Origin: Heliocybe sulcata
Lineage: Eukaryota > Basidiomycota > Agaricomycetes > Gloeophyllales > Gloeophyllaceae
Length of the DNA stretch: 64,000 nucleotides
Assembly (NCBI GenBank): GCA_004369045.1
Contig: ML213511.1
Coordinates: 673,791 to 737,790, forward strand
Reading direction: 5' to 3'
The first letter of the stretch is position 1. Each line of letters opens with the position of its first letter. The notes below the pieces were generated by a model. It saw nothing but the letters and a program-made list of their open reading frames with translations, made no database searches and had not been told where the DNA came from. Positions 7,657 to 49,945 of the stretch are shown one piece after another. A program made the translations under genes and the position numbers.

Positions 7657-7760
7657 AAGATGACTAGAAGGAAGTGGAAGGAATCCAGAGAGAGTAAAAC
7701 AGGTGAAGAATATAAGGTAAACCACGCTCGCGCCCTATAACGAGACGCCCGACTGCCACT

Positions 7761-9784
7761 TTACCGCCAAGCACCACCGGCCGCCTTGGCCGTCGAGTTC
7801 CTCCGCGCAGGAACCGAAACCTCCTTACGCTCAGCCACGGGGGTCTTGGACGGCTTGCTGGCATCGAGGCTCTTCACGGGAGTAGTTGCAGCCTTAACTG
7901 ACACATCCAATTGCATTTTGCTAGCCTTGACCGCCTTTGTGGTCGGAGTCGGCTTGACTTCCTTCTTGCCCGGCTGCGACGCCTTCACAACTTTCGTTGC
8001 AGTAGCGGCGAGAACAACGGGTTTCTCCACCAGGTTACCCGGCTGCGACGCCTTCACAACTTTCGTTGCAGTAGCGGCGACAACAGCGGGCTGCTTTACC
8101 AGGTCGCCCGGCTGCGACGCCTTCACAACTTTCGTTGCAGTAGCGGCGACAACAGCGGGCGTCTTCACCCTGGCCTTAACGACAGTCTTCAGGTCTTTCT
8201 TGACCACCGGCGCCCGAACACGCCAGCTGGCTGAGGGAGACCAAACCTTCGCATCGCTAGGGGGGGCAGGCTTCTTGCCCTTGACGTCTTTGCTCTTCAG
8301 CTTCTCCACTGGTACCTCTGGGATAGCGGTGGGTGTGGGTAGGACTCCAATAGTATCGACGGAGCATTCATCGCCACTGGAGCACGACGTAACAGACGAG
8401 CTTGAGGCGAGGGAGGAGTCAGAGGTATCAAAGGCAGTGGAGCTGCCCGAAGAGGTAGAGGTAGAAAAAGATTTGCCGGCCTCAGAAGCGACAGTGGCCA
8501 AGGAAGATCCTTCCAGAAAGACAGAGACGTCCTCCACAGGGGATTCGATGACCGGTGTTTCCGAAGTCGTAGGAGGAATATTGACGGTCGCAGAGGGAGT
8601 AAAGCTCGCCGGTGAGCTAGCGGAGGGGGTAAGGAAGTCTTTGGGTTGGACGACGGGAGAGGAAGGAAGTTCGAGACCGAGAGCCACCAGGAGGTCTTTC
8701 TTGGTCTCTTCCGCTGTCTTCCTCTTCGTCCAATCGACAGTAGGCGAGTAGTCGCTGACCGGCATGCTGAAGCTGCGACCGTGCTGACAGTCTGGTGTCC
8801 TTTTGCCGATCGGCAAGCTTGTCCTCCGGGACGTCTTCAGAGAAGCTCCATACTCAGAATTGATCACAGCCGTTCTACGTTGCACCTCCGGCTGCGACAG
8901 CGGGTAGCTCCACCGCCTGGACGTCCGGAGCGAAGCTCGATAGTCCGAGTTGGCCACAGTCGCCCTCGAAGTCGGGGCAGTCGGAGCAGTCCACTGCGAC
9001 ACGAGCGTCGGCAGCTCCGAGCCGGCAGAAGAGAAGACAGAGGAAGAAGAGTCTGAGAATAGTAAGCCAGCCCCGGTGCTCGCCGTGATGGAATCATACG
9101 TCCATAGACCGCTCTCCTGGCTTTCGACGTCGGCAGTGGCGGGGCTTCCAGGGTCGACCGCATCGTAGGACTCCGAAACGTGATTGTGGATGGCTCCAAT
9201 AAGGCAAGGCAGCCAGTAGACATCCAGCGACCGTTGTTGGGGTAGAGGAGACGGGGCGACGGTGATGACCTCTGGGCTGGGCAGAGTGGCGATCGGGAGA
9301 GGCGAGTCGTTGGACGAAGGCGAGGTGACCAGAAAGTCGGGCATCTTCGGAAGGAGATGGAGTGCAGACTGCTTGATCCTTCCCAGGAGACGGTCCCCCT
9401 CGACGCTCTGAACACAGCAACGAATGTGAGCACCGGATCGGTCGATGAGGGAACATGCGACATACCTGTCTGTCCGACATTGACGTGACTCTCGTGTCGG
9501 GTACAGCTGATGCCACAGAGTTCCTGTTCCACCACTTCGCATCCTGCATGTTAGCCGCCGAAGAGAACCGTGAACGGTCCATGGGTACTCACGGTAACAA
9601 TTGAAGCATCCCCGGCACTTCCTCGCACAGCAGCGATACGCGTCCACAGCGATGCAGCGAAACCAGAGACCAGGCCAAAGACGGCGACGATGGAAGGCCA
9701 GAAGAGGACCGCGAGACCCAGCAAGGCGACGCTGATGAGGGAGAAGGCCATGACCCAGGCCAAGAGGATCATATCGAACTCCAT
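7761..9784 (-). CDS. Membrane-anchored phospho-motif protein, copy 1 (new family)
   Basis: Function unknown. Exons 9593-9784, 9466-9543 and 7761-9407 give 638 residues. Residues 5-47 are strongly hydrophobic with a proline near 30, so one or two membrane segments. The rest is Ser/Thr/Pro-rich and probably cytosolic. Ordered blocks kept in all three window copies are: LDVYWLP (about 151); DYRASLRTSRRWSYPLSQPE (245-264); EYGASLKTSRRTSLP (275-289); HGRSFSMPV (299-307); DWTKRKTAEETKKDLLVALGL (315-335); KVWSPSASW; and a C-terminal ARRNSTAKAAGG tail. RRWSYP, RRTSLP and RRNS fit PKA-type RRxS. RSFSMP fits the 14-3-3 mode I motif RSxSxP. Near the C-terminus there are three tandem VVAATATKVVKASQPG repeats. 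The next gene to the right in this arm is a decayed monooxygenase. A near-identical inverted copy lies at 16871-18837. The start is the ATG at 9784; upstream in-frame TTG is not needed. Confidence 0.85.
7970..8165 (-). repeat. Tandem 63-66 bp repeat in copy 1 coding sequence
   Basis: Three near-identical units encode the Ala/Val/Lys-rich peptide ATATKVVKASQPG with a variable linker (DLVKQPAVVA, NLVEKPVVLA, KKEVKPT). The inverted partner gene has two units, so the array has gained or lost a unit since the duplication or the last gene conversion. Confidence 0.85.
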
Positions 9785-9880
9785 GATAGACAAGCGAGTA
9801 AGGTGCAGCTGTATCGAGAGTTACTGGTCGAGTGATGAGAGAGAGTAGTGATGAAACAGAGAGGACAAGCTAGTGTTGGA

Positions 9881-9912
9881 TCTTATAGGTTCACGAGCGG
9901 CTGGCATGGAGG
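9881..9912 (-). promoter_or_regulatory. Core promoter of copy 1: CCTCCATGCCAGCC box and TATAAGA
   Basis: On the minus strand CCTCCATGCCAGCC (9899-9912) is followed after exactly 11 nt by TATAAGA (9881-9887), about 100 nt before the ATG. The same box-to-TATA spacing occurs in copy 2 and in the diverged copy 3. Confidence 0.55.
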
Positions 9913-10124
9913 CTGGCAGTCCTCTCGGTCAGGATTGCAACCTATAGGTCGAATCATCCAGCAGCAGTCAGCCTCCTTGACTCCATACCAGCCACACGAG
10001 CACATCTTGCAGGCCAATATCAGAGGCAACGTCAGCGAAGAGGAGGTCAGAATATAGATGTGGCTGGAGGGGACACGCTTTGGATTGAGTTTGAAATTTA
10101 AGCGCCTACGCGTTTGTGGCTGTG

Positions 10125-10638
10125 GCCAAATCTTGATGCGGCCACACCTGTCACTCTACTGAATTCCTTATAGCCTTATCCTGCGGCCCTACAGAACGAC
10201 ATGGTGCAGGATAAGAGGATGGGAGCTGGCAACGTGGACATAGTTAGGCTCGCTGCGAGTTCACCGGGCTGATCCTAAGCTATTATAATACCACGGGCGG
10301 TTCGCATGTCCGCTGGAGCCCGTATTCATACCACAACAGCTACTGGTCTAAGGTGGGTCTTTCTGACACCACGCTTACGTATCAGCTGTTCACTTACTTT
10401 CTGTTATCCCATGTGCGCAAGTAAGGCCCGCAATCCTCATGACTCCGAGTGAGAGCAGTCTTTCGAGCCTTGAGCTTGCTTCCTCATGCTTCTTACCCTT
10501 CACTACCATCTTAGAAGGCTGTTCTGCCCTTGGAAGTCCTGCTCTGTTTTGCTGTTAGCATATATAGTTCGTGAGTAAGGTTACCAACCTTCCCCTGCCA
10601 CCGACCTGTGCTCGTCAGTCGGTATCAGTCCGAGGATC
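10125..10638. other. Spacer between left arm and monooxygenase remnant
   Basis: About 500 bases without a recognisable gene. It presumably includes the former promoter of the monooxygenase remnant. No repeat or TATA signal was seen with confidence. Confidence 0.4.
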
Positions 10639-12190
10639 ATGACTGAGCCCAAGTTCAGAGTCGCCATCGTGTAAGTATTCTTGTTCAAACAAGGGTTGCT
10701 TATTTGACGATGAAGCTCTGCCCAGTGGAGGTGGAATAGCCGACCTTATCTGCGCAGTGGCTCCCTAGAGCCGGCAGTATTGAGGTCGATGTTTGTGAAG
10801 CTGCGCGTTAATCCTCCGAGGTCGGTTCTGGTATTGGACTGTTCTCCGGCGTCTGGGAGATTACGGAGGCACTGGGGCTCGACGAGAGTCTTACAGAGGT
10901 TGCATCTGGACGAGGCGAGTGTCCCAGTCGATACCCCGGCACACTTCTAACACCTGGAAAGGATCGATTGCGAACGATGCACGGAAGTCAGATATGGCCG
11001 AAGGCGTCAATTTCCATGACACGCGTGATGCGGGTATGTATTGGATAGGTATTATTGCATGGTCAACATGGCTCACATGCTCTTGCAGCTGGCTTCGTGA
11101 CCTTCCATCAAGCAAATATCCGGAAGATAGTACTGAATCATACCCCACACTCATGCGAAACCCATCTCTTTAAGCATCTCGTCTCGGTCAAAGAACGAGA
11201 ATCCGCGGATCTGCCAGTCTCATTGTGCTTTGAGGCTGGCACTACTTGCGATCTGCTTTTTGCTGCCGACGCTATCCAGTTTGCAGTAAGGGGCTCTATA
11301 TTCCGCACTGGTGCTGACAAGGCCGCCGAGGAAGGAAGGCTGCAGCTTGCAGAGGATCTATTAAGCTATATTGATCCAGCTTGGACCGGGAATCCCGCGT
11401 ACCGTGGCCGTGTGTCCAAAGAGAAGGTTGTAGAGCAAAACCCGGGACATAGAGTATCTAAAGCGCTCACTGTGGTAGGTAAGCCTTCCATGAGATATGG
11501 TGCGTAAGACAGCCGTGACTAAGCTCCGACATAGTATTGTGGGAAGAACAGGGTGAGCTCAAAGCTTGAACGCACCAGCTTGACAGCGCTCACGCGGGAT
11601 CACTGGCACGGGGCAGCATGTGGCAGCGTACCCTGTGTCTAATCAACTTTTCGGGTCTAGTCTCAAGGCCAGGTCTTGAAGGGTCTCCCTTCGATGGACC
11701 ATGGGTAGAGCCCGAATTTCAGCAAGTGATGCATGTGAGCAAAATACCTCCTACTCCAATAACTGGCCCTCAGTTAGTAATGCGAAGAGCCTATCGAAAG
11801 GCCCACTTGATGGATTATACACGTATCAATCCTTTACCTTCCTTGATGTCGAGGAGGATAGCATTGCTCGGGGATGCGGTGCGCCATTCTCCCTGTACAG
11901 TCGCCAGTAACTCCATGCAAGCGAGTTCTGATGGTCGATATCATGCGGGTATGAATGCCCTACGTTGTATGGCTGATGCCATAGACAAGGGCCGGGATCC
12001 TGCATGCGAGATCGTCCCTAAGCGCGAACCAGTGACAGCACGCGCTACCTTGCTCCGCTTGTGCTGTTTATTTTGGCGCAAGACTCGATTCATGTAGCTT
12101 ACAGACTTGTGGGAAATATTCCTCTAGCATCTATGATATCCAAACTAAAGGAACTCGTCTCCCGTCCTACATATGCCATTCCAAGCTAAG
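10639..12190 (+). pseudogene. Decayed FAD-dependent monooxygenase (salicylate hydroxylase-like)
   Basis: ATG 10639 opens MTEPKFRVAIV. A normal-looking intron (GTAAGT...CCCAG) restores the nucleotide-binding motif VGGGIADLICAVA, but a stop codon follows at once. Downstream, other frames carry further family blocks: IEVDVCEAAR, then a stop, then SEVGSGIGLFSGVWEITEALGLDE; CDLLFAADAIQFAVRGSIF, from the FAD-binding second motif; LINFSGLVSRPGLEGSPFDGPWVE; and RIALLGDAVRHSP, where intact enzymes have GDAAHA..PHQGAG. The order of blocks matches class A flavoprotein monooxygenases. At least two stops and several frame changes are present and the PHQGAG motif is lost, so it is not functional. The 3' end runs up to a TIR element that may have interrupted it. 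Confidence 0.8.
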
Positions 12191-12215
12191 GTGAAGGCAG
12201 TTCCGTCGCGGCAGT

Positions 12216-13201
12216 TATACTATAGGTGTGGACATATAGATCTATAACTGAGTTCGAAATATAGTTCGGACTTCAAAAACACTCCCACACCTGTGGCGCA
12301 ATGTCATCTTGCAATGATATTCATATTATGACAGTAGACCCTGCTGGCCAGAGAATAGGATATACCTTGAGAAGCATAAAGCACAACAGTATGTGTTTGT
12401 ACAATTTCACTGCAGGTGAATCTCAGCGTAAATGCAAAGACGTCGCAAGTTCCAGTTCCGAGAGGTAGTTCGGAGTTTGTACTAGTTCTCACGGCTGTGG
12501 CATACAGAATCTATGTCGATTCCTGACTGTATTCATGCTGCCGCACCCCCGGGATGCAGGATGATGAAGCTATGACAGCTTAAGCATATAAAAAAGTGGC
12601 TCTTCCATGTCTTTTAGTATATTTTTGAGGTACGGCGCGGCAGCGCCGACCAAAAAAATCGGCATTTTACACTTTATTCGATGTTTTCTGAACTTCTACA
12701 TATGTTCCGACTTCATGGATGAAGGTTCTAAACTCTGAGAGGGTGGAGGAGGTTTCTAGGTATATAATAGGCTTTCTTGAAGCCTGAGGAAGTAATACTG
12801 CGGCGCGTAGCGCCGCTTCCGAGAAGAGAAAGCTTTAAGTGGCGGGAATTGAGCTGTAAATTGCATTCGCACTCTGTTGGTACAATACAGTTTGCCAAAT
12901 ATTGCTTTGCATGTTTTAGAGTGCCATAATGTAAATCCGAGAACTGGGCGGCGCGCAGCGCCGCGAAGCTGAGCTGAGATAGGTCCCGTAAGCAATGGAA
13001 ATCTGTCCTGGAAGGGTGTTCCAGGCTAGAAGAAACCGAGAATGCCACCTGGAGGAGCTAACAATGTATTCCAACTATGCTACAAGTTTTATAATTCTAC
13101 CTGTGCCTGAGGAGTAGCTATCTCCTCTCTTCCTTCTCCTCCCTCTTCGAGTTAATTATTTAATTTTAGTTAATTTCGACAAAGTCCACACCTATAGTAT
13201 A
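12216..13201. mobile_element. Non-autonomous TIR DNA element (MITE-like), about 1 kb
   Basis: TATACTATAGGTGTGGAC at 12216-12233 is the exact reverse complement of 13184-13201. The outer TATA on each side can be read as a TA or TATA target duplication, leaving 14 bp inverted ends CTATAGGTGTGGAC. The interior is AT-rich with no transposase motif. A 106-codon minus-strand frame (12728-13048) is unrecognised. The interior holds three strong GC-rich palindromes (12633-12648, 12800-12816, 12948-12964) in otherwise AT-rich sequence. The superfamily is uncertain; a TA target site would suit Tc1/mariner-type or related elements. Confidence 0.7.
12633..12964. repeat. Three spaced GC-rich palindromes inside the TIR element
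   Basis: CGGCGC-GGCA-GCGCCG (12633-12648), GCGGCGC-GTA-GCGCCGC (12800-12816) and GCGGCGC-GCA-GCGCCGC (12948-12964) are perfect hairpins with 3-4 nt loops, spaced about 150-165 bp apart. Confidence 0.85.
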
Positions 13202-13904
13202 TGAGCCGGACTGGAAGCAAAGCGGATCTTTCCATATGGAGCAGGTAGCACAGCCACAGCCGCGCTGTCAGCGTTTGCCTCCGACGCAGTCAGGGCACCA
13301 ATACCAATAAACCTCCACTTCGCTCACCAGGTACGGACGCAGCAGATACGTAGGTCACTAGAGTCGCGTCTAGCATTCAAAATTCCCACTAGGAGTCTAC
13401 GTCACAGAATTTGTCGGGACGTCCGCGTCATTCATGGAATAGTCCAGGTTCTACCTATTCAAAGTGAGCATTGCTGAGGGTATCTCCTCTGTGGAGCTCA
13501 CCGCGTTCTCTAAATCCCAGCGCGACTGACCGCCGGCTATGATCGTCCACCAGGCACTGACAACGATCTCTCTTTGCCATCGCCATTACGCCTATGTTAT
13601 GACCGCCGGCTATGATCTCGCTGGCATGAATGTGGAGTCTTTCTCGACGTTGGACAGCGCGTCCTGTTCCTGGCTGTCTGTGCGCTCAGGCGTTGGTCTG
13701 GCCAGGCCACCTTCGGAATTCGGCTACGCGCCAGAGCATTCAATGCACAGGTCATCGATGCTCATTGACGTTTTCGCTGGACGTTTTCGCTTATGGACTC
13801 GGTGATATAAAGGCGTTCATCTAGCTCTGGCAGTCAGCAGCAAATATCCTCTTCTCCAGCCTACACAAGAGCCGTCTGAGACTCAGTCTCAATACTTCGC
13901 CGCC
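13202..13904. promoter_or_regulatory. Upstream region of the hydrophobin gene, TATA box and short repeats
   Basis: TATAAA lies at 13806-13811, about 95 nt before the ATG and preceded by GGTGA, which is a plausible core promoter. An 18 nt direct repeat TGACCGCCGGCTATGATC occurs at 13527-13544 and 13600-13617. A short tandem repeat of GACGTTTTCGCT lies near 13765-13790. No gene is recognised between the TIR element and the hydrophobin. Confidence 0.5.
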
Positions 13905-16023
13905 ATGCTTTCGCATAAGTTCGGCGCCTTAGTGGTCTCAGTATATCTCGCTCTTCTCGTGGGTTCGTCTCCCATGCCCCAGAATGCAGCCGACGGGGAC
14001 GTCTCTGTGCTTCCTGGCATCACCGACAACCCTCTTGTCAACGTCACTGGAGGAGCTAGCCCTGTTACCAATGGCACAGTTATTGTCGGCGGCAGCGATG
14101 GCAGCGACACGTCAAACAACGGTACGACGACGGACGACGGACAGTCTAGCGGCGGCTCAACTCCCACCAACAGCTCGACCGACGTCACTGGTTCGACTGA
14201 CAATGGAGGAGCCAGGTAACTATTAACGCTATCGACATTGCAGGGTTCTTGAACGCTGATTGTACCCTCACAGTGGCTCGACCAATGGCACGACTTCCAC
14301 TGACGGCAATGTATCGACTGACGGCACTGTTCCGACTGAGAATGGCGGGTCAAGGTATGCTTCCCTCTCTTCCACTGCTAGTGCATGAAAGCTAACCACA
14401 TCTTCCATAGCGCCGGCTCATGCAACTGCGTCTGCCCATCCACCAGCAGCGGGCCGACCAGCGCTGGCCTGCTGAGCGCAAGCGTCAATGCCGGGGGCGA
14501 CGACTCCACCGATCCCAACTCCACCAGCGGGTCTAGTGATCCCAACCTCGTCGACGCGGACGTCAACGTAGGGGGGAACGGCGATGACCCCGCACTCGTC
14601 GGAGCTCAGGTTGGCGTACTCGATGACGGAAGCGGCGGAGATCCTTCCTCTGACGGGAGCGCGTCCACGAGTTTCTCTGCTTCTGCAACGCCCAGTCCGA
14701 CCGCGAGCAGCGGCAGTGATGATGGTAGTACGGGAGGGTCTTCCGACACCGCAGGCCCATCTGCAACTGTTTCGGCCAGCATTGGCGCGGATAATGGCGA
14801 TGGCACCAGTACATCCGCTTCTTCCACTCCAGCACCCTCCGATGACAGTGGCTCCAGTGGTAGCAACGACGCCGACCCTTCCAACGATACTACCTCCTCT
14901 TCTGCTCCTTCCGCGACTCCGGCTCCGATCGACGGTTCGGACGGCAGCGACAACGGAGGAGTGCCTGCGAGCCTTGGTCCGACCGATGACAGCGGCAGCT
15001 CTTCCGCTGCCCCATCTGCTACCGCAGCGCCTAGCGACGGTGAATCTAATGCGACGCCGACAACAAGCGGCGCTAGCGACGGAGGAAGCGGCGTAGATTC
15101 GACCCCGACCTCAACTTCAAGTGACGACGATAGCTCCTCCGCTACCCCATCTCCCACTGCAGCACCCACCGACGGCGGATCCGATACGACCCCGACCTCA
15201 AGCAGCGCCGGTGGCAGTGATCCGGCCCAGACCTCAACTGCAGCCGACGACGACAGCTCTTCTGCTACCCCATCTCCCACACCAGCACCCAGCGACGGTG
15301 GATCCGCTACGAGCTCAACCTCTACCAGCGCCAGCGGCAGCGATGCCGCCTCTACCTCCACTGCGAGCGATGACAACGGCTCTTCTGCTACCCCATCTCC
15401 CACTGCAGCACCCACCGACGGCGGGTCTGATACTACTCCAACATCAAGTACCGCCAGCGACAGTGACTCGACTCCGAGCCCAATATCGTCCACTGACGGC
15501 GAAGCTGACCCCACCCAAGCCCCTGCGTCCGGCGGCATCGCCAGGTTCAGACTCGGCAGCTTCATGAACGGCCTAATCAACGGTGTCGGCGGGATGTTGT
15601 CTGATGCAGACGTTACTCCTACTCCTACCTCAGACGCGGGCGCATCCCCCACTCCCTCCGACGATGGTAGTGCTCCTACTTCCCCTCCAGCCTCGTCCCC
15701 TGCGCCCTCTCCCACCGCTACCACGTCCCCCTCGAGCGGCCAGTGCACCAGCGGAACGCCGCAGTGCTGCCAACGCGTCACGACTGCTTCCGACCCGGCT
15801 GCCTCTGGAATGCTCGATGAGCTCGCAGACGGCATGGATCTCAATGGTCTCGTTGGGCTGGGGTGCACGCTTGGGTTCGATAACTGTCAGGCGCAGACGG
15901 TGTGCTGTGAAAACACTTCACAGAGTAAGTCATCTTGTTCTTTGCTCATACAACTCTTACTGACGGGCTTGCTGTTTTATAGATGGATTGGTCAATATCG
16001 GCTGTACCAACATTGCCCTCTAG
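13905..16023 (+). CDS. Giant mucin-like class I hydrophobin
   Basis: Four exons (13905-14215, 14274-14354, 14411-15924, 15983-16023) give 648 residues. Residues 1 to about 22 form a signal peptide (FGALVVSVYLALLVGSS). Residues about 25-570 are a Ser/Thr/Asp/Gly/Pro-rich mucin-like region containing a CNCVC motif near residue 134. Several imperfect repeats of about 40 residues built on SSATPSPTAAPTDGGSDTTPTS lie in it. The last 73 residues are a class I hydrophobin domain. Cysteines are at 576, 583, 584, 616, 623, 629, 630 and 643, in the order C-x6-CC-x31-C-x6-C-x5-CC-x12-C, ending NGLVNIGCTNIAL. Known hydrophobins self-assemble into amphipathic films on hyphae and spores and are usually about 100-150 residues long. 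The x6 spacing between Cys4 and Cys5 is slightly short. The final intron splits ENTSQ/NGLVNIGC as in typical hydrophobin genes. Confidence 0.9.
15121..15480 (+). repeat. Imperfect coding repeats in the hydrophobin mucin region
   Basis: About three to four units of roughly 117-120 bp encode variants of DDDSSSATPSPTAAPTDGGSDTT followed by a Ser/Thr-rich spacer. Confidence 0.65.
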
Positions 16024-16546
16024 ACGGTGAGGTGCAGAACGCTTGGTCGACGATCGATAATTTTCTTCGCTTTCCGTTATCATACACGAGTTTTATTAAC
16101 CTTCTGAGCTCTCATCAGTGCTGCCTGCTTCTTGTATGAACATTGTAATTGTACCACCGTAGTGTATATGCCTCTCGAACTATATGTACTAGTTCGTCTA
16201 TGTTACATAGCAATGCAATTCTCTGCCCTCATCTATCAAATGCTAGGAACAAGGGAGTCCTTTCCGGTATTCCAAGAAGCCCGTGCATGTTTATTGTCAT
16301 GCATACCATACCCGGTAGAAACTCATTTTGCTTCCCAGATGCATGCCACCAGATCAGGTCGATCGTGGCTTGTGTCATGTAATCCCCCGGAGGTCATTCG
16401 CCGCTCATCAGTCACTCAGTACTCACTATTCAACAGACATCCAAACGAATTCATAAGGGAAACTTAACGTTTCTTCGGCATCTTCAAAAAAAGTACAGCG
16501 ATATTGAATACTGCGACGCTGAATGTGTGCTCGAGCGCTCAGTAGC
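16024..16546. other. 3' flank of the hydrophobin gene
   Basis: About 520 bases with no coding signal. It ends where the right arm of the inverted duplication begins. Confidence 0.4.
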
Positions 16547-16742
16547 CACAGCCACAAACGCGTTTAAATTTCAAACTCAATCCAAAGCCCTCCTCCCTTC
16601 AGCCACATCTATTGTGACCTCCTCTTCACTGATGATATTGGCCTGCAAGATGTGCTCCTGTGGCTGGTATGGAGTCAAGGAGGCTGACTGCTGCTGGATG
16701 ATTCGACCTATAGGTTGCAATCCTGACCGAGAACACTGCCAG

Positions 16743-16774
16743 CCTCCATGCCAGCCGCTCGTGAACCTATAAGA
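16743..16774 (+). promoter_or_regulatory. Core promoter of copy 2: CCTCCATGCCAGCC box and TATAAGA
   Basis: The box lies at 16743-16756 and TATAAGA at 16768-16774, separated by 11 nt as in copies 1 and 3. The ATG follows about 100 nt later. Confidence 0.55.
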
Positions 16775-16870
16775 TCCAACGCTAGCCTGTCCTCTCTGTT
16801 TCATCACTACTCTCTCTCGTCACTCGACCAGTAACTCTCGATACAGCTGCACCTTACTCGCTTGTCTATC

Positions 16871-18837
16871 ATGGAGTTCGATATGATTCTCTTGGCTTGG
16901 GTCCTGGCCTTCCCCCTTATCAGCGTCGCCTTGCTGGGTCTCGCGGTCCTCTTCTGGCCTTCCATCGTCGCCGTCTTTGGTCTGGTGTCTGGCTTTGCTG
17001 CGTCCCTGTGGACGCGTATCGCTGCTGTGCGAGGAAGTGCCGGAGATGGTTCAATTGTTACCGTGAGTACCCATGGATCGTTCACGGCTCTCTTCGGCGG
17101 CTAACATGCCGGATGCGAAGTGGTGGAACAGGAACTCTGTGGCCTCAGCGGTGCTCGACGCGAGAGTCACGTCCATGTCGAGCAGACCGGTATGTTGCCC
17201 GTTCCCCCATCGACCCATCCGGTGCTCACATCCGTCGCTGCGTTCAGAGCGTCGAGGGGGACCGTCTCCTGGGAAGGATCAAGCAGTCCGCGCTCAATCT
17301 TCTTCCGGCGATCACCGACCCTCTGGTCACCTCGTCTTCGTCCAACGACTCGCCTCTCCCGATCGCCACCAACCCAGAGGTCATCACCGTCGCCGCGTCT
17401 CCTATACCCCAACAACGGTCGCTGGATGTCTACTGGCTGCCTCGCCTTATTGGTGCCTTCCATAATCACGTTTCGCACTCTAGCGCTGACGGGGCCGCCT
17501 ACGACACGGTCGAACCTGGAAGCCCCGCCACTGCCGACGTCGAAAGCCAGGAGAGCGATCTATGGACGTATGATTCCATCACGGCAAGCACCGGGGCTGG
17601 CTTACTATTCTCAGACTCTTCTTCCTCTGTCTTCTCTCCTGCCGGCTCGGAGCTGCCGACGCTCGTCTCGCAGTGGACTGCTCCGACTGCCCCGACTTCG
17701 AGGGCGACTGTGGCCAACTCGGACTATCGAGCTTCGCTCCGGACGTCCAGGCGGTGGAGCTACCCGCTGTCGCAGCCGGAAGTGCAAAGTAGAACGGCTG
17801 TGATCAATTCTGAGTACCAAGCTTCTCTGAAGACGTCCCGAAGGACAAGCTTGCCGATCGGCAAAAGGACACCAGAATCTCAGCACGGTCGCAGCTTCAG
17901 CATGCCGGTCAGCGACTACTCGCCTACTGTCGATTGGACGAAGAGGAAGACAGCGGAAGAGACCAAGAAAGACCTCCTGGTGGCTCTCGGTCTCGAACTT
18001 CCTTCCTCTCCCGTCGTCCAACCCAAAGACTTCCTTACCCCCTCCGCTAGCTCACCGGCGAGCTTTACTCCCTCTGCGACCGTCAATATTCCTCCTACGA
18101 CTTCGGAAACACCGGTCATCGAATCCCCTGTGGAGGACGTCTCTGTCTTTCTGGAAGGATCTTCCTTGGCCACTGTCGCTTCTGAGGCCGGCAAATCTTT
18201 TTCTACCTCTACCTCTTCGGGCAGCTCCACTGCCTTTGATACCTCTGACTCCTCCCTCGCCTCAAGCTCGTCTGTTACGTCGTGCTCCAGTGGCGATGAA
18301 TGCTCCGTCGATACTATTGGAGTCCTACCCACACCCACCGCTATCCTAGAGGCCCCAGTGGAAAAGCTGAAGAGCAAAGACGTCAAGGGCAAGAAGCCTG
18401 CCCCCCCTAGCGATGCGAAGGTTTGGTCTCCCTCAGCCAGCTGGCGTGTTCGGACGCCGGTCGTCAAGAAAGACCTGAAGACTGTCGTTAAGGCCAGGGT
18501 GAAGACGCCTGCTGTTGTCCCCGCTACTGCAACGAAAGTTGTGAAGGCGTCGCAGCCGGGCGACCTGGTAAAGCAGCCCGCTGTTGTCGCCGCTACTGCA
18601 ACGAAAGTTGTGAAGGCGTCGCAGCCGGGCAAGAAGGAAGTCAAGCCGACTCCGTCCACAAAGGCGGTCAAGGCTAGCAAAATGCAAGCGGATGTGTCAG
18701 TTAAGGCTGCAACCACTCCCATGAAGAGCCTCGATGCCAGCAAGCCGTCCAAGACCCCCGTGGCTGAGCGTAAGGAGGTTTTGGTTCCTGCGCGGAGGAA
18801 CTCGACGGCCAAGGCGGCCGGTGGTACTTGGCGGTGA
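16871..18837 (+). CDS. Membrane-anchored phospho-motif protein, copy 2
   Basis: This near-identical partner of copy 1 is transcribed away from it. Exons 16871-17062, 17121-17189 and 17248-18837 give 616 residues. It has the same hydrophobic N-terminus and the same RRWSYP, RRTSLP, RSFSMP, DWTKRKTAEETKKDLL and RRNST motifs. It carries two tandem ATATKVVKASQPG repeats where copy 1 has three. The copy 1 acceptor CATGCAG reads CATGCCG here. The next AG lies 9 nt downstream (GATGCGAAG) and keeps frame at the cost of the residues Asp-Ala-Lys. The diverged copy 3 also begins this exon at WWN, so the shorter exon may be the ancestral form. Insertions relative to copy 1 include a few residues (SADGAAYDTV) near residue 165. 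It stops with TGA, like copy 3, while copy 1 uses TAA. Function unknown. Confidence 0.85.
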
Positions 18838-18938
18838 AGGGATAGACTGTATTGTATACGGTGTGGTGGGCGTGACTCCGAGATCTAACGATCTTTTCTT
18901 ATTCTCATACAATTCCATTCTCATCTCCTTGCAATCTT

Positions 18939-18966
18939 CGGTGCACATTCAATTTATCATGCTCCG
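18939..18966 (+). promoter_or_regulatory. 3'-UTR hairpin element of membrane-protein copy 2
   Basis: CGGTGCA and TGCTCCG pair around an AU-rich loop, 102 nt after the stop codon. The element is flanked by ATCTTCGG and TCGCGTGCC as in the other copies. Surrounding sequence has largely diverged from copy 1. Confidence 0.55.
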
Positions 18967-19514
18967 TCGCGTGCCTATGTACCGGGCTTTTCTCTGAATT
19001 CGTCTGCTTCATGTACTTATACATCTTTTCATATCTCCACACTATTCCGCTAGCTCATTGTGCGTATCAGAATTACAGCGTATCCTATATACATTTACCG
19101 TCTCCCACTTGCATAACACCCAGTTGTCAGTGCTCCTTGGGATGTCCCAGCTGACGCTCCGGGAGATGTGACTTGGAGAGGTCCATGACAGTCAAGCTTC
19201 AAGGTTTGTACCGTCATCAACGCTACTAGGCGCTGAGCGCTGAGTAGTGAGTCCGTGGCTCGCTCCTCTCAGCAACTGATGCCATGGCCTTGACATGGCC
19301 GCCGAAACAATACCATTACCGTTTTTTATTGACTTGCAGAGTTAAGCTTCCGACACCAATCACCGGTCTTATCCTGGGAATGGATGTAAAAGGTCACGGA
19401 GAATATTTTGAAGAGCCTGTTGCCAGTATCTAGATATAGCCGACCTAAAGGCGAAACCGATTGCACATGCATCACCATGTGTCCGTACCAGCCGTCCTTC
19501 CCTCCACGTCATGA
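18967..19514. other. Spacer between copy 2 and the Old Yellow Enzyme gene
   Basis: No coding or repeat signal recognised. It serves as the 3' flank for both convergent genes. Confidence 0.4.
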
Positions 19515-25314: not shown

Positions 25315-25431
25315 GCTGGTCTCTACACACACAAAATGGCGTATTGCGTCTTATTGTGGCAGACTCGGACTCTTTCCAATTATGATGTGTCCTTTGCTAT
25401 GCAGCTCTTCTAGGAAACGTAGGTACAGTGT

Positions 25432-41800: not shown

Positions 41801-43149
41801 TATGGTCACTGCGTCCTACATCTCCCCGCAAATGAAAGAGCTGCACTCCAGGTTAGCCTTTTGCCCCACTTCATCCTGCGCTTGTTCATGTCACCCGAGC
41901 TCCTAGCGCACTCGCCTCCGACACACTCATACTTAACGAGATCGGGCTGGACCCTGGGATCGATCATTGCTCTGCGTTCTCGCTGTTGAAGTCGATTAGG
42001 GATGAAGGGAAGCGGGTGAGGTCGTTCGTGAGCTTTTGTGGGGGCCTGCCGGCGCCGGAGTGCGCGGAGGATGTGCCGCTTGGGTATAAGTTTAGTTGGA
42101 GCCCGCTGGGGGTGTTGAGGGCTGCCAGAGCGGATGCGAGGTTTAGGTTGGATGGCAAGGTACGTTTTTGTTGTGCATTGTTATGGGTGTAGAGCGGGAT
42201 GGTGATGGCGTTTGGGTGCGTGTAGGATTATAAGATCGCAGAGCCGGATCTGCTTCGGCATCATTTTACGGACGTTCCGGTGTCTAACGTGTTACGGCTG
42301 GAGGGGATAGCGAATAGGGATAGTATGCCCTACGCGGAGACGTATGGGTTAGGCTCGCCAGGAGAATTGCGCAGCGTTCTCCGTGGCACGCTGCGGTCTG
42401 TTCATTTCCCTCTTCATATCCACTAACTGATTAATTAACTTCGCTCGTCCATATCTAGGTACCCCGGATTCTGCGCACTCATGCAGGGGTTCAAGGAGAT
42501 CGGGCTGTTAGAGTTTGAGTTGAAGGTGCGGCTGGATGATTGGAGCTCACTTGCCCAAAGAGCGTTTGAGGGCAAGTATAAGGATGGCGTGAAGGGCGAT
42601 CGGGCTTCGCTGATGTCGGCGCTGTCGAGTGTTGTGTCTGCGGGATCGGAGGGTCGTCTGGCGGAGGCGCTGGGGTGGTTGGGAGCGATTCCGAGCGCTG
42701 TGTTTAACGACATGCCGCCCGTACCGAAAGGGGAGATGGCGCCCATCGAGCTGTTCGCGGGTCTGCTGGCGCATAAATTGGCGTACAAGCCGGGCGAGCG
42801 GGATATGGTCGTCCTGCACCACGAGATCGTCGCCTCCCCTGCCTCCCCTTCGCTCTCGAAGACAGAGGAGATATATACGTCGACGCTGATGGCGTATGGT
42901 ACGCCTGTGCATTCTGCGATGGCGATGACGGTGGGGTTGCCGGTTGCGCTTGCGGCGCTGAGGGTGCTGGATGGGAGGGTGGGGATGAGGGGTGTGAGGG
43001 GCCCGGAGGAGGAGGGGCTGTGGAGGGGCGTGCTTGGGGGGATGGAGGAGGCGGGGTTGGGGATGAGGGAGAGGGTTAGAGGTGGGGGGATGGGAGTGGG
43101 GGTGGAGGGCGTGCTCGGGGAGGGGTTGAGGAGGACTATGGGGGTGTAG
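38877..43149 (+). CDS. Bifunctional lysine-ketoglutarate reductase / saccharopine dehydrogenase
   Basis: Converts lysine plus 2-oxoglutarate through saccharopine to aminoadipate semialdehyde and glutamate. The N-terminus [29 protein letters not shown] is arginine-rich without acidic residues, like a mitochondrial presequence. The LKR half follows: [127 protein letters not shown] and [11 protein letters not shown]...[13 protein letters not shown]. The saccharopine dehydrogenase half has [85 protein letters not shown] and [20 protein letters not shown], and ends RRTMGV. More than ten introns. Yeasts have separate LYS1 and LYS9; the fused, apparently mitochondrial form is the arrangement known from animal and plant lysine breakdown. 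Confidence 0.9.
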
Positions 43150-44472
43150 GATTGTTAGTGTGTGTAGGATATGCGCGGATGTTTCTCGAATTTTGACTGT
43201 ACTGTGCTAATGGATCTGAAGAAGAAACAATGGTAATGCAGAGACCGATCCTAGAGCTCAGCTCAGAAATGTTAGACGCCCGCAACTGATGTCTACGGCC
43301 TGTCGGTTCCGACGTCAGGGTCGTTCCGCATTTTCAGGTCATTGCGTATCATGAGACGCATCAGAAAGTTATGAATGCGCAATTATCAGTACGCCGTCTA
43401 GGTCACGAGGGTAAACGGAGCCTTTCGCCGTCTCTTCGGTCTACTGAATATGCCGTGTATATTCAGCCCTGGAAGGTCTTGAATCGACGGCGCTGGATGT
43501 ATGAACCTACCACTAACCCGGCCTCTGCTGGGAGGCCAAAGAGCTTGTAATGCCAGGTGTTAGGCGGCGAGCACAAATTGGCCCGATCTGCGTACTTCGC
43601 GTACTCCTTGTCTCACACGGAGCGGAGAAGTTCAGAATTAGTCCCGTTCGACTGACAGGTGCGAAGCGGGAGACCAATCACGGGGACGAGAAGATGCGAG
43701 GATGTGAGACCGCGGATCGAGGAGGCAAAGTAGGCTTTACAGGATATTCTGAGTTGGATGCCGTCCTTGTCCTCAGGGCTCTGACCCTTTATCCAAGATG
43801 AAAGCCATGAGGATAAGAAGCGGCGTCCTTGCATATCTTTTGCGAATTGCGCACAACCTTGAAACTTTGATTGTGCTTCGAACAAGATAAGATATCATCA
43901 GATGCCTGCTTGCTGTGTCGTCCCACTCCATGGTTGTGCGTCCGTTAATTTGGGACAGAATAAGGGCCTCGGGAGGGGGCACGTAGGTTCGTTATGACCA
44001 GGTGACGCGGTATGTCAAGTAGACTCAGGAATACATGATTCGCGGTACTTACTGTCCTTTTGTCAGGGTTGTGTTCTAGACATTCAAGATAGCAAATGAA
44101 GTGAATATCGGCTAAGGCCGAGTTCCCTGCATTGGTAAATGACGGCATCTTTAGAGATGACAAAGGCGACCACAATTAAAGAGAGTTTCCGCTGCCTGAA
44201 CAAAGCCGCATCTATAGTGAATGCAGATCATGCATGCAGCGTTCTGCTCGACGACCAGAGGGCGATTTGGCCAATAAGCGTGGGAAGTTGTGTTACACAA
44301 TTTACATCATCGGTCACAGCAGCGCAGGGATGCCGAGGCTGGCCGGGAACAGCTTGGCGGTGCTGATTGGCCAATGATGAGCCCCGGACTGTCACGTGGC
44401 CGAACCCGTCGGTACGGGTACATATAAGGCGGTTGCGCCACAACGCGCACACCTTACGACCCCCGCTAACGA
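43150..44472. other. 1.3 kb spacer before the CNNM gene, with TATA box
   Basis: No supported gene. Three consecutive minus-strand frames (44175-43945, 43982-43773, 43885-43613) show no known motif. TATAA at 44423-44427 sits about 45 nt before the CNNM/Mam3 start. Confidence 0.4.
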
Positions 44473-47400
44473 ATGGTACCGACTATACGACAAGTCCCAG
44501 GATCTGCTCCCTCTGGCCTAGCAGTCTCTTTACTTTCTGTACTATTGAGCCATGTTCCAAAGCCGAATTTCTCTTACCCCGCAGCGCACAATGGCCTCGG
44601 TGTCGACGCCTCAGGTGGCGGCACGGTGTTGCACACATTCGCCAAGCGAGCTCCTTCTGGCCCGGAGAAAATCGTCTTCCCGATTCTTATTCCCATCCTC
44701 GTCTTGCTGTCGGGTCTGTTTGCCGGTCTGACACTGGGCTATATGAGCTTGGACGAAACACAATTGAATGTGCTCAGTTTGAGTGGCACGCCGTGAGTAG
44801 GCTCTAGACTAACAAGCGCCCATTACTGACATCCTTTGTCGCAGTGAACAGAGGAAATACGCCAACCAAATCAAGCCTATTCGCAAGAATGGGCACCTGC
44901 TCCTCGTGACCCTGTTGCTTGCCAACATGATTGTCAACGAGACGCTGCCCGTCATCGCGGACCCAGTTTTGGGTGGTGGAGTGCAGAGTGTCGTCGTCAG
45001 TACTGTCCTTATTGTTATGTGAGTTCAACGCAAGCCCGAAAGGCCGGGATATAGCGGGTAGGCTAGCACCCTTCCGTCAGACCCGTCTATTTGTATGCAT
45101 CTATGTTAACAATACTGTCCCCCAGCTTCTCGGAAATCATACCGCAATCTGTCTGCAGTCGTTATGGACTGCTTATTGGTGCGAAGATGGCGCCGTTCGT
45201 GAAGATTCTAATCTACACCTTTGTTCGTGTTTCTCTTGGCACGTGACGTAACGCCTGATTCTGACGTACCTCTGATAGGGTATTGTGGCTTGGCCTGTGG
45301 CGAAACTGCTCGAGTGGGTGCTCGGTTCTCACCATGGCATCATCTACCGAAGAAGTGGTACGTCATCTACCAACTCTTCCTGGGTCTCCATCATATCTGA
45401 TAATGATATTTTTGTTAATATTGTGTGTGTCCAGAACTCAAGGAATTGGTGGCAATGCACGCATCGACGGCAACCCATGGCGGCGATCTGAAGACAGATA
45501 CGGTTACTATTATCGGCGCCACGCTAGACTTGCAGGAGAAAGTTGTCGAACAGGTTCGAGTCCTATCTTCTTGATTCTACGGGCATTGGTTTAAGTTGCA
45601 TATTAGGCGATGACTCCCCTAGATCAAGTCTTCATGCTTCACATCGACACAAAGTTGGACTATAAGAATCTGAAGCGCATCTGCGAGACGGGTCATAGTC
45701 GTATCCCGGTTTATGATGAGATCGAAGTACCCAGTCTGATTGCCGGCGACCGGGTCGAGGGCCCGGCGCAGATGCAGAAGGTGAAGAGGATCATCGGTAT
45801 TCTTCTTGTCAAGCAGGTACTTTCCATCCTGTTCGAAGGTCGATTTCAGGAGCTGAGATTTCCAATCCAGTGTGTGCTCTTGGACCCCGAGGACGCTACC
45901 CCATTGCGTCAACTCCCGCTCAACAAGGTGACGTACGTCCCGAGGAACGAGGCCTTGCTTGGAATCCTCGATAGATTCCAAGAAGGACGCAGTCACATGG
46001 CTATCGTATGTCTGATTTTATGGCCTTTGCGTTCTAATGCTGATGTTCCCGCGCTGGATGCAGGTCAGCCGGCTCAGTGTGGAACGCGCCGCCAGCGTGA
46101 AGCAGGAGGTGAAGCGGAGTCTCACTCAACGTATCAGGGACCGCGTCATTGGCGAATCCAGCGACGAGGAGACCGACCATGCGGAGGAGAGCTCCGAGTC
46201 TACGCCGGTCGACGACCGCGATGCTACGTTGAGGGGCGATGGCCAGCTGGAGAAGAAGCTCGCGGAGGGCGACCAGTCCGATGAGCAGCACAAGGAGGGC
46301 CGTGGTAGCTTCAGGGGTAGGGGCAGGGGCCGCAGTAAGAGAGGGAAGTCGAAGCATGTGGATATTGAGATGGGTGTTGTCGAGCCGACCCAGCAGCAGG
46401 AGGGGACGAAGAGTAGGCGGAGCAGTATTGCGAAGCAGCTCAGGCCGCAGGGGTTGCTGCAGAGTATGCCTGCTGATGCAGTGCTTGCGAGGAAGGATGC
46501 TGAACCGGTAAGAGCGACATAGGGTGTTTGTGTGATCCTTTTTGCTGATTCGTTGTGGTTACATAGTACTTGCAAGGGTTTGACCCTTCTGTCATGCCTG
46601 TTGGTATTATCACCTTGGAAGACGTCTTGGAAGGTATGCCGTTTCCTCTTGCCGTGCTCGCAGATGCTTACCAACGTCCTTCAGAACTAATCGGGGAAGA
46701 GATCTACGACGAGTTCGATCCTCAGGGCGGCCATGTCGTTTCTTACGATCCTCCTGAATCGGTTCGCTCTGCTGGTCGATCCACTCTGAAGAAGCAGCAG
46801 TCCGCGCCTGATTTGACAACCGGCACTGCGGAGAAACCCGTTGGCAGCGCCTCGCCTCGACTCAAGCCTGCAAGTCCTACACCCACTCTCCGTCCCATCG
46901 CTATCCCCACCGCGATCAAGGGCTTCAACTTCCTTAGGAGTCGCAGCGCCCCGCCTACTCCCAGGGATAAAGTCGCGAGCAACGATCGCAGCTCTTCGCA
47001 GGGCTCCCCGGCTCCTGCAATCCCGCCGTTGCCAGAGATGTCGCCGCCGGCGATTGACATAGCTGAGCCGCAGCTTGGTGAGAAGGCCGAGCCCGCTGGG
47101 CCGAGGATCGTAGTCGAGTCGCCTGAGATGCTGCCGACTGCTGCGGGCACTGAGGAGACGGAGAAGATTCCTGGCTTGGGGGCTGGGCAGACTACGAAGG
47201 CTGTTAGCCCGCCTGCTTCGGGTGTCCCTGCCAATGTTGCGGCGGACCACAGGAGCGCGTCGCCTGCTCCGTCACTCGAGGCGATCTTGCTCGATAGGAA
47301 GCGCCGCATGGCTGGTGGCAGTGGCAGCCCTCCTGGTGGTGCGCGCCCTCAGGCTGGGCCTGCTGAAGGTCCGAGGATCGTGCGCGTCGCGACGCCGACT

Positions 47401-47559
47401 GGCGGGAAGGGCTCGAGGTTCAAGAGCAGTCCGTTGAGTGGCAGCGAGAATAGTGGTGGCGCTGCGGCGGAGAGGGTAAAGGGACAGAGCGACGCTACGC
47501 GTATACCTGGTGGTAAAGAGAAGGAAGGCCCGGATAAAGAGGAGAAGCGTGATGAGTGA
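44473..47559 (+). CDS. mam3: CNNM/Mam3-type DUF21-CBS membrane protein
   Basis: Family members handle Mg2+ and other divalent metals; yeast Mam3 is vacuolar. After a hydrophobic N-terminus the DUF21 membrane domain reads [92 protein letters not shown] and GIVAWPVAKLLEWVLG. The CBS pair follows: AMTPLDQVFMLHIDTKLD...ICETGHSRIPVYDE, and GILDRFQEGRSHMAIV joined to FDPSVMPVGIITLEDVLEELIGEEIYDEFD. A charged insertion of about 150 residues (Arg/Gly run RGRGRGRSKRGKS) splits the second CBS domain. The last 270 residues are Pro/Ser-rich and probably disordered. Several short introns. ATG 44473 is preceded by a TATA box. Confidence 0.9.
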
Positions 47560-47849
47560 GGAATGGGACGGCGCGGTGGGGATGATGATATTGTATGACT
47601 CTAATAGACTTTAGGACTTACGATTGCTTGTTTCTTCTTAGTTAATGCCTTTGTTGACGAACTTAGTATGTAATGTACAAGTAGCACCGTTTGTGGTCGT
47701 ACTTTATGATTGAATCAAATCCTTAGAGGGATAGGCGTACTCAAGCCAGATATGAAAGGGATGGCAGATACAGTTGATTGCAACCGTAAGATATAGTGAT
47801 GAATCAGAAGCTACAAGAAGGAACAAAAGCCCAAGGAAAGGGCACACGA

Positions 47850-47878
47850 CGGAGCACGATGAAGGAGAATGTGCGCCG
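47850..47878 (-). promoter_or_regulatory. Second 3'-UTR hairpin element of copy 3
   Basis: On the minus strand CGGCGCAC and GTGCTCCG pair with one mismatch around a pyrimidine-rich loop, 234 nt after the stop codon. It tandemly repeats the proximal element. Confidence 0.5.
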
Positions 47879-47961
47879 AAGATATGGGAATATACGAGAA
47901 AGAAAATGTAGGAATACAAAGGGAGTCTATGAGGCTATAAAACCAGTAGCTGGGTACGCGA

Positions 47962-47990
47962 CGGAGCGTGATGAAGATGAATGTGCTCCG
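47962..47990 (-). promoter_or_regulatory. First 3'-UTR hairpin element of copy 3
   Basis: On the minus strand CGGAGC and GCTCCG pair perfectly around a loop containing ATTCATCTTCATC, 122 nt after the stop codon. The variable base in the stem is A here, which completes the pairing that is a mismatch in the other copies. Confidence 0.55.
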
Positions 47991-48111
47991 AAGATGTTTA
48001 AGAAACATAAGAAAGAGACGGAGACGGGACGAGAGTAATAAGAAAATATATCTAGACTGCACCTCCTACGCAACCGTAGCTTTCATCATGCAATAGCTTC
48101 CCTCCGCTTCT

Positions 48112-49945
48112 TCACCGCCAGGTACCAGCCGTCGCCTTGGCTGTAGAGTTCCTACGCGCAGCGACGCCGACCTGCTTACGCTCGACAACGGGAGCCTTGG
48201 ATGTAGCAGGCGGCTTGCTGGCATCGACACGCTTGACCGCCTTGACGTCCTCGGTCTTGGTCGGCTTTGTGACCGTGGTCTTGACCTGCTTCTTCACGAC
48301 CTTGACTGGCTTTGACGCTTTGGCATCCTTGGTCGGAACGGCGGGTTTCCTGGTGTCCGGCTCGATTGGGGTCTTTGGGCGGACGCTCCAGCTGGCTGAG
48401 GGGGACCAGACTTTGGCGTTGCTAGGCACGGTGCGCTTCTTCCCCTTCTCGGCTGGCGCGGGCTTGGATTTTTGGACGGCTGGCTCGGGGAGGGGGGACG
48501 GGGCTGGTAGGGGTTCGACTATGTCGCTGCTGGAAGAGCAAGAGGTGGCGGAGGAGCTGGAGGCGACCGAAGTGCTGGAGTTGTCGAAGCCAGAGGAGGT
48601 GGAGGTAGATACTGAGGTGTCGTCGTCCAGAGTAGGAGATGGGAGAATAGGGACAGAAGACTCTTCGACTAGAACAGGGACATCCTCGACAGAGGGAGCG
48701 TCTGTGGGAGCTTCCAGAACCATGGGAGGGGTATCGATGGACACAGAGCCGGCGAAGGCGGCAGGAGAGGTAGCCGATGGAGTGAGAGTAGAGAGAGATT
48801 GGTCGGTAGAGGGAGTAGTAGGCGCGACGAGTCCAAGAGCGACTAGGAGTTCATTCTTCGTCTCGTCCGCGGTCTTCCTCTTCGTCCAGTCAACAGTAGG
48901 GGCGTATATATCGACGGGCATGCTGAAGCTGCGACCGTGCTGGTAATCGGGTCGCCTGTGAGGGGTGGGTAGGCTTGCTCTCCGAGAAGTCTTCAGAGAA
49001 GCTTGGTATTCTGGGTCGAGGATGGCGGCTCTCCTGGTCGCCTCGGGCTGCGAGAGGGGGTAGCTCCATCGCCTAGAAGTTCGAAGGGAGGCTTGGTAGT
49101 CGGAGTTGGCGATGGTTGCCCGCGCAGTGGCCGGGGAGGTGGGGTCCGTCCACTGAGAGACGAGGGTCGGCAGATCAGAGCCGGCGGGAGTGAATACGGA
49201 TGTGGAAGAGTCCGAAGACATGAAGCTCGCGCCGATGCTGGCTGCTATAGAGTCGTATGATGATATGTCGCCCTCTTGGCGTTCGATGTCGGGGGTGACG
49301 GGGCTGCCGGGCTCGACGGTGTCGTAAGTGCCGTTGTCGGAGTTGGAAACGTGGTGGTGGATGCAGTTGAGGAGGAGGGGCAGCCAGTAGACGTTGAGCA
49401 GCGTGGGTTGTTGGATACGAGACTCGTCGACGGTGATGACCTCGGGGTTGGGCGGGGTGACGGTGGGCAGGGGCAAGGTGTTGCCAGAAGGAGAGGTGAG
49501 CAGGAGGTCGGGCGTCGTTGGGAGGATGTCAAGCGCAGTCTGCTTGATCCTTTCGAGGAGCGCGCCGCCCTCGGTGCTCTGGAGGTGGTAGTTCAGTAAG
49601 CAGCACGGTGGCTGGCCAAGAGACGTGCTACGTACCTGTCTGTTCAATATGGATATGGCACTGGTACTGGGTAGCTCTGAGTGTATAGAGTCTCTATTCC
49701 ACCACTGAGGACCGCCAATGTCAGCCGTCGTATAGAGGGCTGTACTGTAGGTGGGTACTTACGGTGGCGATTGAAGCATCGCTGACACTGCCCCGCATAG
49801 CGGAGACACGTGTCGCGATGGATACAACGAAGACGGAAATACGACTCAAGACGACGGAAGATCTGAAGAAGTATCCGAGTCCGACGAGGGCGATGCAGAC
49901 GATGGCAGCGGCCACGATCAAAGCCAGGAACATGTCGAAGACCAT
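48112..49945 (-). CDS. Membrane-anchored phospho-motif protein, copy 3 (diverged)
   Basis: Third family member, about 30 kb from copy 2. Exons 49763-49945, 49636-49704 and 48112-49578 give 572 residues with the same two intron positions. The N-terminal hydrophobic segment (MFLALIVAAAIVCIALVGLGYFF) is kept in character but not in sequence. LNVYWLP, DYQASLRTSRRWSYPLSQPE, EYQASLKTSRRASLP, HGRSFSMPV, DWTKRKTADETKNELLVALGL, NAKVWSPSASW and ARRNSTAKATAGTWR are nearly unchanged, while the Ser/Thr/Pro linkers differ widely. That pattern marks the motifs as the functional parts. No ATATKVVKASQPG repeats, but a Lys/Val-rich equivalent is present. It is divergent from a small membrane protein at 50705. 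Function unknown; scaffold or adaptor docking through phosphoserines is my inference. Confidence 0.85.

Follow-up and report, generated by a model that had tools for sequence, protein, structure and literature searches.

Multisite clients of 14-3-3 include CFTR, LRRK2, Nth1, MDMX and MDM2, and for MDM2 the two sites are described as not bridging the 14-3-3 dimer (PMC10864208). One account gives the core of 14-3-3 sites as RXXpS/TXP, places the two grooves ~34 angstrom apart and treats disorder as predictive of docking sites (PMC10099770). In another, mode I is written R[S/aromatic][+](pS/pT)XP, where X is usually Leu, Glu, Ala or Met (ARSHpSYPA being a crystal peptide), and mode III is written (pS/pT)X1-2-COOH (PMC9523730). 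Here, we describe a 64,000-nucleotide (nt) stretch of the genome of the basidiomycete Heliocybe sulcata (contig ML213511.1, positions 673,791 to 737,790 of the forward strand; hereafter the window), which carries three related genes, A, B and C. Considering the gene models, the paralogues found elsewhere in the genome and the predicted structures, the best explanation, which we hold tentatively and with slightly less than even confidence, is that their products belong to a family of membrane-anchored proteins whose disordered tails would offer phospho-dependent 14-3-3 docking sites.

Genes A, B and C each consist of three exons (Table 1), and both introns (57-58 bp, phase 0) lie at positions common to all three. 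Splice sites were set by homology and the GT...AG consensus without a gene predictor; under this choice AAG instead of CAG closes intron 1 of A and B, and in A an alternative CAG acceptor 9 nt upstream would add three residues. The models bear out the pattern that a preliminary description of the three genes had reported, namely two shared intron positions, an N-terminal anchor and short islands of near-identity. The genome (31.6 Mb in 51 contigs, the window lying on contig C9) was searched for relatives; only the best candidates were scored and family counts are lower bounds. One protein query recovered at least five genes (A to E, group F1), all on C9 within ~270 kb. The membrane-proximal part of exon 3 of A gave two weak matches on contig C20 (expectation value [E] 0.01 and 0.08), and these, used as queries, identified at least five genes on that contig (F2a to F2e, group F2) and recovered gene C at E 0.0064 and 0.09. 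F2c and F2d as queries of the genome yielded no further genes, and a match on contig C2 (L007; E 0.275, one internal stop) was not accepted as a relative. An F2 remnant with internal stop codons was also seen at C28:109000-113000 (L042).

Profile-profile comparison of exon 3 between F1 and F2 gave a probability of 96% (E 3e-9, 61 columns), and a repeat gave 96.6% (E 5e-10), against 0.3% and 0.5% for reversed profiles (E 0.22 and 0.11) and at most 1.0% for 30 column-shuffled profiles (E at least 0.057). The ten gene models share a three-exon plan with phase 0/0 introns, a hydrophobic exon 1 with Ser-[Ile/Phe/Met] 3-4 residues before its end, and a Trp-first exon 2 of 20-27 amino acids (22-23 in F1), while the F2 proteins are only 23-29% identical to exon 3 of gene C. 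Because the profile score stands above the controls and the gene plan is the same, F1 and F2 are, by sequence comparison, homologous and form one superfamily, and A, B and C are on the same grounds members of a real, conserved, unnamed fungal family of at least ten genes.

Searches for a known family were consistent with this. The Pfam scan covered A, C, F2a, F2b and F2d: A and C matched no family over the gathering score, and exon 1 of F2a with the exon-3 frames of F2a, F2b and F2d gave none over the cut-off, with one sub-threshold match at E 0.92. Among PDB sequences the island had no match, and the best match to a ten-sequence exon-3 profile reached only E 0.17. Four island peptides did not occur in a full-text search of open-licence literature, nothing on the F1/F2 family was found in open-licence literature on basidiomycetes, disorder and 14-3-3, and viral contigs searched with exon 3 of gene C gave 43 pattern stretches and no relative. 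Within Pfam, PDB sequences and the open-licence literature, the family can thus still be called undescribed, as first proposed; a profile match to a characterized family, named at that time as the contrary outcome, did not appear in Pfam for A, C or the F2 pieces scanned.

The six islands listed in the preliminary description (RRWSYP, RRTSLP/RRASLP, RSFSMP, DWTKRKTA(E/D)ETK, KVWSPSASW and ARRNSTAK) were each located in A, B and C, and their conservation against C exceeds that in shuffles. Since A and B are near-identical copies, only the comparison of A/B with C is informative within the window, and constraint can be told from recency because C stands at 58% amino acid identity to A over 562 aligned residues, with a synonymous divergence (Ks) of ~1.07. 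A and C share six identical runs of at least 9 residues, against a mean of 1.76 in 20,000 shuffles (P 0.003), the longest being 17 residues (P 0.021); besides the sites, the runs include LPTLVSQWT, PTVDWTKRKTA, LLVALGL, AKVWSPSASW and ARRNSTAKA. Overall, the ratio of non-synonymous to synonymous divergence (Ka/Ks) between A and C is 0.28; it is 0.13 within the island block and rises to 0.38 across the Ser/Thr/Pro linker (block versus linker, Fisher P 9e-9 with non-synonymous counts rounded). At all three Arg-containing sites only silent codon changes separate A from C, bar Thr/Ala at -1 of site 2. These comparisons show purifying selection on the F1 islands. Sites 1 and 2 lie in a tandem unit (ANSDYRASLRTSRRWSYP, INSEYQASLKTSRRTSLP). 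Islands outside the three sites are less fixed in the further copies: gene E has ...AEEIK and KVRSPSASW instead of the forms in A to C, and in gene D a 2-base shift in exon 3 (~C9:755.4 kb; L008 ~3930-4074) ends its own frame at 496 amino acids and removes the KVWSPSASW and ARRNSTAK islands.

The pattern R-x-x-[ST]-x-P occurs in all ten proteins, each copy starting at residues 251-302. F1 proteins carry RRWSYP, RRT/ASLP and RSFSMP, and F2 proteins carry RRWSLP (F2a), RPWSWP and RPWSLP (F2b), RRWTLP and RSFSLP (F2c), and RVITRP and RPASLP (F2d and F2e); F1 sites 1 and 2 align with RRWSLP of F2a, RPWSWP/RPWSLP of F2b and RRWTLP/RSFSLP of F2c. Across the ten proteins Arg at -3, Ser/Thr and Pro at +2 are kept and Arg at -2 is not, a pattern that a 14-3-3 site would predict and a protein kinase A (PKA) site as such would not. 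The proposal of phospho-dependent docking is strengthened in that the core survives at 23-29% identity (RSFSLP in F2c, RPWSLP in F2b), and after the paralogue comparison docking is plausible and better supported than before. The initial assignment of PKA-type RRxS sites is weakened at the central sites. RRx[ST] is kept at sites 1 and 2 of all five F1 proteins and at site 1 of F2a and F2c, but the second Arg is lost at central sites such as RPWSWP, RPWSLP, RSFSLP and RPASLP, the motif being absent at the sites of F2b, F2d and F2e and at RSFSMP/RSFSLP. With Arg -2 lost in F2 and Pro +2 kept, we rejected PKA by itself as the explanation of the central sites. PKA is still in play elsewhere in the proteins because C-terminal RRx[ST] sites recur, as RRNS in A, B, C and E, RRMT in F2d and F2e and RRLS at 480/548 in F2c (none in D, F2a and F2b). 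RSFSMP, once taken for an exact mode I motif, retains the core and Ser at -2 and has Phe, not a basic residue, at -1. In addition, F2d and F2e (C20; L038, L039) end in RRMTV-COOH, an ending that matches both the mode III form and a PKA-type site; as close copies they count as one case, and so short a C-terminal match may be due to chance. One 14-3-3 gene was found in the genome, as two exon matches with YKN..ARR and RYLAE stretches, which we take to be groove residues.

Hydropathy analysis placed a hydrophobic anchor near the N-terminus in all ten relatives (best 19-residue window 2.5-3.0 in A to C). No Lys or Arg precedes the hydrophobic stretch in any of them, whereas in eight of them Lys or Arg follows no more than 20 residues after the best window, and in A and B it lies just beyond that distance (R49, R54); F2a and F2b have a nearly neutral flank, with acidic residues nearby. 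The positive-inside rule relates flanking Lys/Arg to the cytosolic side of a membrane, and because these residues follow and never precede the anchor, we infer that the tail would lie in the cytosol. AlphaFold2 predicted one continuous helix at residues 2-63 for exon 1 of A, the only anchor modelled (mean predicted local distance difference test score [pLDDT] 81.5, modelled without a membrane). Hydropathy and this model together support the claim that the proteins are membrane tethered. A two-helix membrane hairpin in F1, where hydropathy stays high to about residue 50, was not adopted, the model of A showing one helix, which in the absence of a membrane is not decisive. Exon 3 of gene C, the only tail modelled (from ten sequences), is predicted to be disordered: mean pLDDT is 42, 429 of 488 residues score below 50, and helices appear only at 3-18 and 237-247, the second within the KRKTADETKNELLVALG island. 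The sites of gene C fall in this predicted disorder, with pLDDT below 50 at exon-3 residues 27-223.

Taken together, the products would span the membrane once, leaving a very short N-terminus outside, while a long disordered tail on the cytosolic side would bear two or three R-x-x-S-x-P sites ~190-240 residues past the anchor helix. In gene A the candidate phosphosites are Ser 254, 284 and 301, spaced by 30 and 17 residues. A basophilic kinase may phosphorylate such sites, a 14-3-3 dimer would then dock on the phosphorylated tail, probably at two sites at once, and 14-3-3, or a client on its free groove, might be recruited to or held at the membrane during kinase activity. The topology, the phosphorylation, the 14-3-3 binding and the recruited client are all inferred.

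Several observations weigh against the docking explanation. Shuffled sequences reached the observed motif counts in 0.7-2.9% of cases for the five F1 proteins, 4-6% for F2b, 7-9% for F2c and 19-29% for F2a, F2d and F2e; taken singly, the motif in these last three does not exceed chance expectation. For each of A, C and F2a to F2d, the probability that one or more motifs start within residues 250-302 by chance is 4-12%, and the ten proteins are not independent trials, as F1 and F2 share ancestry and the F1 copies are recent. Site 2 of F2a is lost (GRWSLA). The match to the full optimal mode I is incomplete: Ser at -2 occurs only in RSFSMP/RSFSLP, and residue -1 is Trp, Phe, Thr or Ala, never basic. 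In the literature, Pro +2 is reported for fewer than half of validated 14-3-3 sites, and Arg -3 may reflect the kinase (PMC10099770). Moreover, the long helix of A was obtained outside a membrane, and the block aligned between F1 and F2 is not at the putative docking sites; it is the membrane-proximal LLTSPS...P...W stretch just past exon 2, of which LLTSPSG is intact in C and all five F2 proteins and altered in A, B, D and E.

The recent history of the F1 genes also bears on how conservation is read. A and B form an inverted near-copy (94% amino acid identity, Ks 0.07) within an inverted repeat (window 7759-10022 and 16633-18839). The repeat has four in-register arms of up to 1135 nt, with 92-98% complementarity, and stops within 2 bases of the A and B stop codons. 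Exon 3 is 94-99% identical between A and B, yet their 3' flanks are only 61% identical; the flank of A instead groups with that of D (79%) and the flank of B with that of E (86%). This pattern suggests that gene conversion has homogenized the two genes over their coding parts.

Alternatively, PKA or a different basophilic kinase may simply phosphorylate the central sites and so alter tail charge or membrane contact, without any 14-3-3. This reading, which we consider unlikely, draws on the RRx[ST] sites described above, both central and C-terminal, and on the basic C-terminal part of A, B, C and E (20-25 Lys/Arg in the last 100 residues). Pro at +2 is dispensable for the PKA consensus, yet it is kept here, while Arg -2 is replaced by Pro or Ser in F2b, F2c site 2, F2d/F2e and F1 site 3. 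We give similarly little credence to the possibility that the islands are linear motifs for other partners, such as septum, polarity, trafficking or kinase scaffold proteins, with R-x-x-S-x-P otherwise read or incidental. Conservation does extend beyond the sites, to the other runs identical in A and C and to the membrane-proximal block shared with F2; however, Pfam and PDB matches to another partner are absent, and the Arg -3, Ser and Pro +2 combination fits one established reader.

Two further explanations appear less probable still. The products might be secreted or cell-surface Ser/Thr-rich proteins with a signal sequence at the N-terminus and the tail outside, which would suit the N-terminal position of the hydrophobic stretch, the Ser/Thr/Pro content of exon 3 (26-37%) and the one to three N-glycosylation sequons per protein. 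The basic n-region is missing in all ten proteins, though, Lys/Arg instead following the stretch in the eight noted above (weakly so for F2a and F2b), and the exon-1 helix predicted for A is long and unbroken; on the anchor flanks and the helix length this improbable reading was set aside. Least credible, and in our view very improbable, is a fast-turnover, lineage-specific family of little function, in which recent duplication and gene conversion maintain the motifs. The near-identity of A and B in exon 3 over dissimilar 3' flanks, the frameshift in D and the F2 remnant on C28 would suit it, but A and C combine a Ks of ~1.07 with a Ka/Ks of 0.28, silent changes have accumulated in the motif codons, and F1 and F2 are far more diverged.

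A 3' non-coding element of ~45 nt (ATCTTCGGNGCAC..TTCATC..GCTCCG) occurs at all five F1 loci, in a shorter form in B. It starts ~90-120 nt past the stop codon in A, B, C and E; in gene D it lies 92 nt past the homologous stop position, well beyond D's own earlier stop. Between A and C the element is 80-85% identical, against 19-44% in windows beyond it; between A and D it is 88% identical, but these flanks are related anyway. A 37-nt pattern of the element had three matches in the window and none in 100 shuffles. A 24-nt core with at most two mismatches had five matches in the whole genome, all of them F1 copies (two at C), B falling outside because of a gap; the reversed-pattern control gave none. 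Rfam at the gathering threshold returned no match in the window, and the element was not found in the F2 3' flanks, where CGTCGGTGCACATTC of F2c, with one mismatch over 15 positions, was not accepted as a homologue. A hairpin has moderate support (z scores of -2.5, -2.2, -3.2 and -1.3 for the four window copies) and is uncertain, B folding differently and copy 1 of gene C forming a shorter stem; a role in mRNA stability or location is a guess. Alignment showed a TATA-like stretch, CCTATAA, and a GCCAGCC box upstream of all five F1 genes. A more elaborate version of the docking explanation, in which the proteins would be dedicated lineage-specific membrane 14-3-3 receptors with a paired or triple phospho-switch, the mode III ends of F2d/F2e replacing decayed central sites and the private 3' element further controlling the F1 mRNAs, docking and mRNA control thereby evolving jointly, strikes us as distinctly improbable.

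Other features of the window were noted in passing. In a 585-amino-acid open frame on the forward strand (window 14382-16139), the only hydrophobin match lies close to the C-terminus (455-515, E 1.3e-6), and a front part of such length seems atypical of a hydrophobin. A CAP59 mannosyltransferase match also lies within the window and, like the hydrophobin match, marks the DNA as fungal. DUF6533, a family typical of basidiomycetes, has 28 matches in the genome and none in 14 control genomes, which points to a probable basidiomycete origin. A small forward-strand open frame, read by eye, starts at window 50705 and is oriented divergently from gene C; it contains one hydrophobic stretch (MNTPTATSTRPLYSGSPYEPDGLNIGIAVFF...) and is preceded by a TATA-like ggtataaaat.

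Table 1. Coordinates of the F1 genes, their sites and islands, and the 3' element (window positions unless preceded by C9)
Feature	Position	Strand	Details
Gene A	7761..9784	-	exons 9784-9593, 9534-9466, 9407-7761; 635 aa
Gene B	16871..18837	+	exons 16871-17062, 17121-17189, 17248-18837; 616 aa
Gene C	48112..49945	-	exons 49945-49763, 49704-49636, 49578-48112; 572 aa
Gene D (F1)	from ~C9:753972	+	protein search
Gene E (F1)	from ~C9:947776	-	protein search
Gene A, exon 1	9593..9784	-	putative membrane anchor helix, 0 K/R before helix; hydropathy, AlphaFold2
Gene A, exon 2	9466..9534	-	23 aa, starts WWNR; gene model
Gene A, site 1 RRWSYP	8901..8918	-	residues 251-256
Gene A, site 2 RRTSLP	8811..8828	-	residues 281-286
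Gene A, site 3 RSFSMP	8760..8777	-	residues 298-303
Gene B, site 1 RRWSYP	17749..17766	+	
Gene B, site 2 RRTSLP	17839..17856	+	
Gene B, site 3 RSFSMP	17890..17907	+	
Gene C, site 1 RRWSYP	49057..49074	-	
Gene C, site 2 RRASLP	48967..48984	-	
Gene C, site 3 RSFSMP	48916..48933	-	
Gene A, DWTKRKTAEETK island	8700..8735	-	matching place in gene C is the best-predicted tail helix
Gene A, KVWSPSASW island	8223..8249	-	
Gene A, C-terminal ARRNSTAK island	7785..7808	-	
3' element, gene A	7623..7659	-	
3' element, gene B	18936..18971	+	one base shorter; seen by alignment, missed by pattern searches
3' element, gene C, copy 1	47957..47993	-	
3' element, gene C, copy 2	47845..47881	-	at ~+230
3' element, copies outside window	C9:755959 and C9:945636		

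Many fungal disordered membrane proteins have neither a name nor a role. Paralogues of graded divergence can reveal which residues are kept in such proteins, and the core conserved in the present family suits a known phospho-reader. Should the docking explanation hold, the genes would represent a fungal family whose products dock 14-3-3 at the membrane and have no recognizable folded domain, together with a small phospho-switch, and the private 3' element would offer a second, independent handle on the regulation of the F1 genes.

A-kinase anchoring proteins and other PKA scaffolds are membrane-tethered disordered scaffolds with basophilic sites, and the present proteins are predicted to resemble them in all three respects, differing in that the Arg pair is not conserved at the central sites. 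With the multisite 14-3-3 clients (PMC10864208) they share the motif core, at least two close sites and a predicted disordered setting, whereas here the modelled tail is almost wholly disordered and no domain was found. Aminopeptidase N (CD13), as presented in PMC7939381, is likewise membrane-bound and has a bivalent stretch, two phospho-sites serving a single 14-3-3 dimer; it is, however, an ectopeptidase, the paper concerns extracellular 14-3-3, and the likeness to the predicted tails of the F1 and F2 proteins is drawn at the level of motif arrangement.

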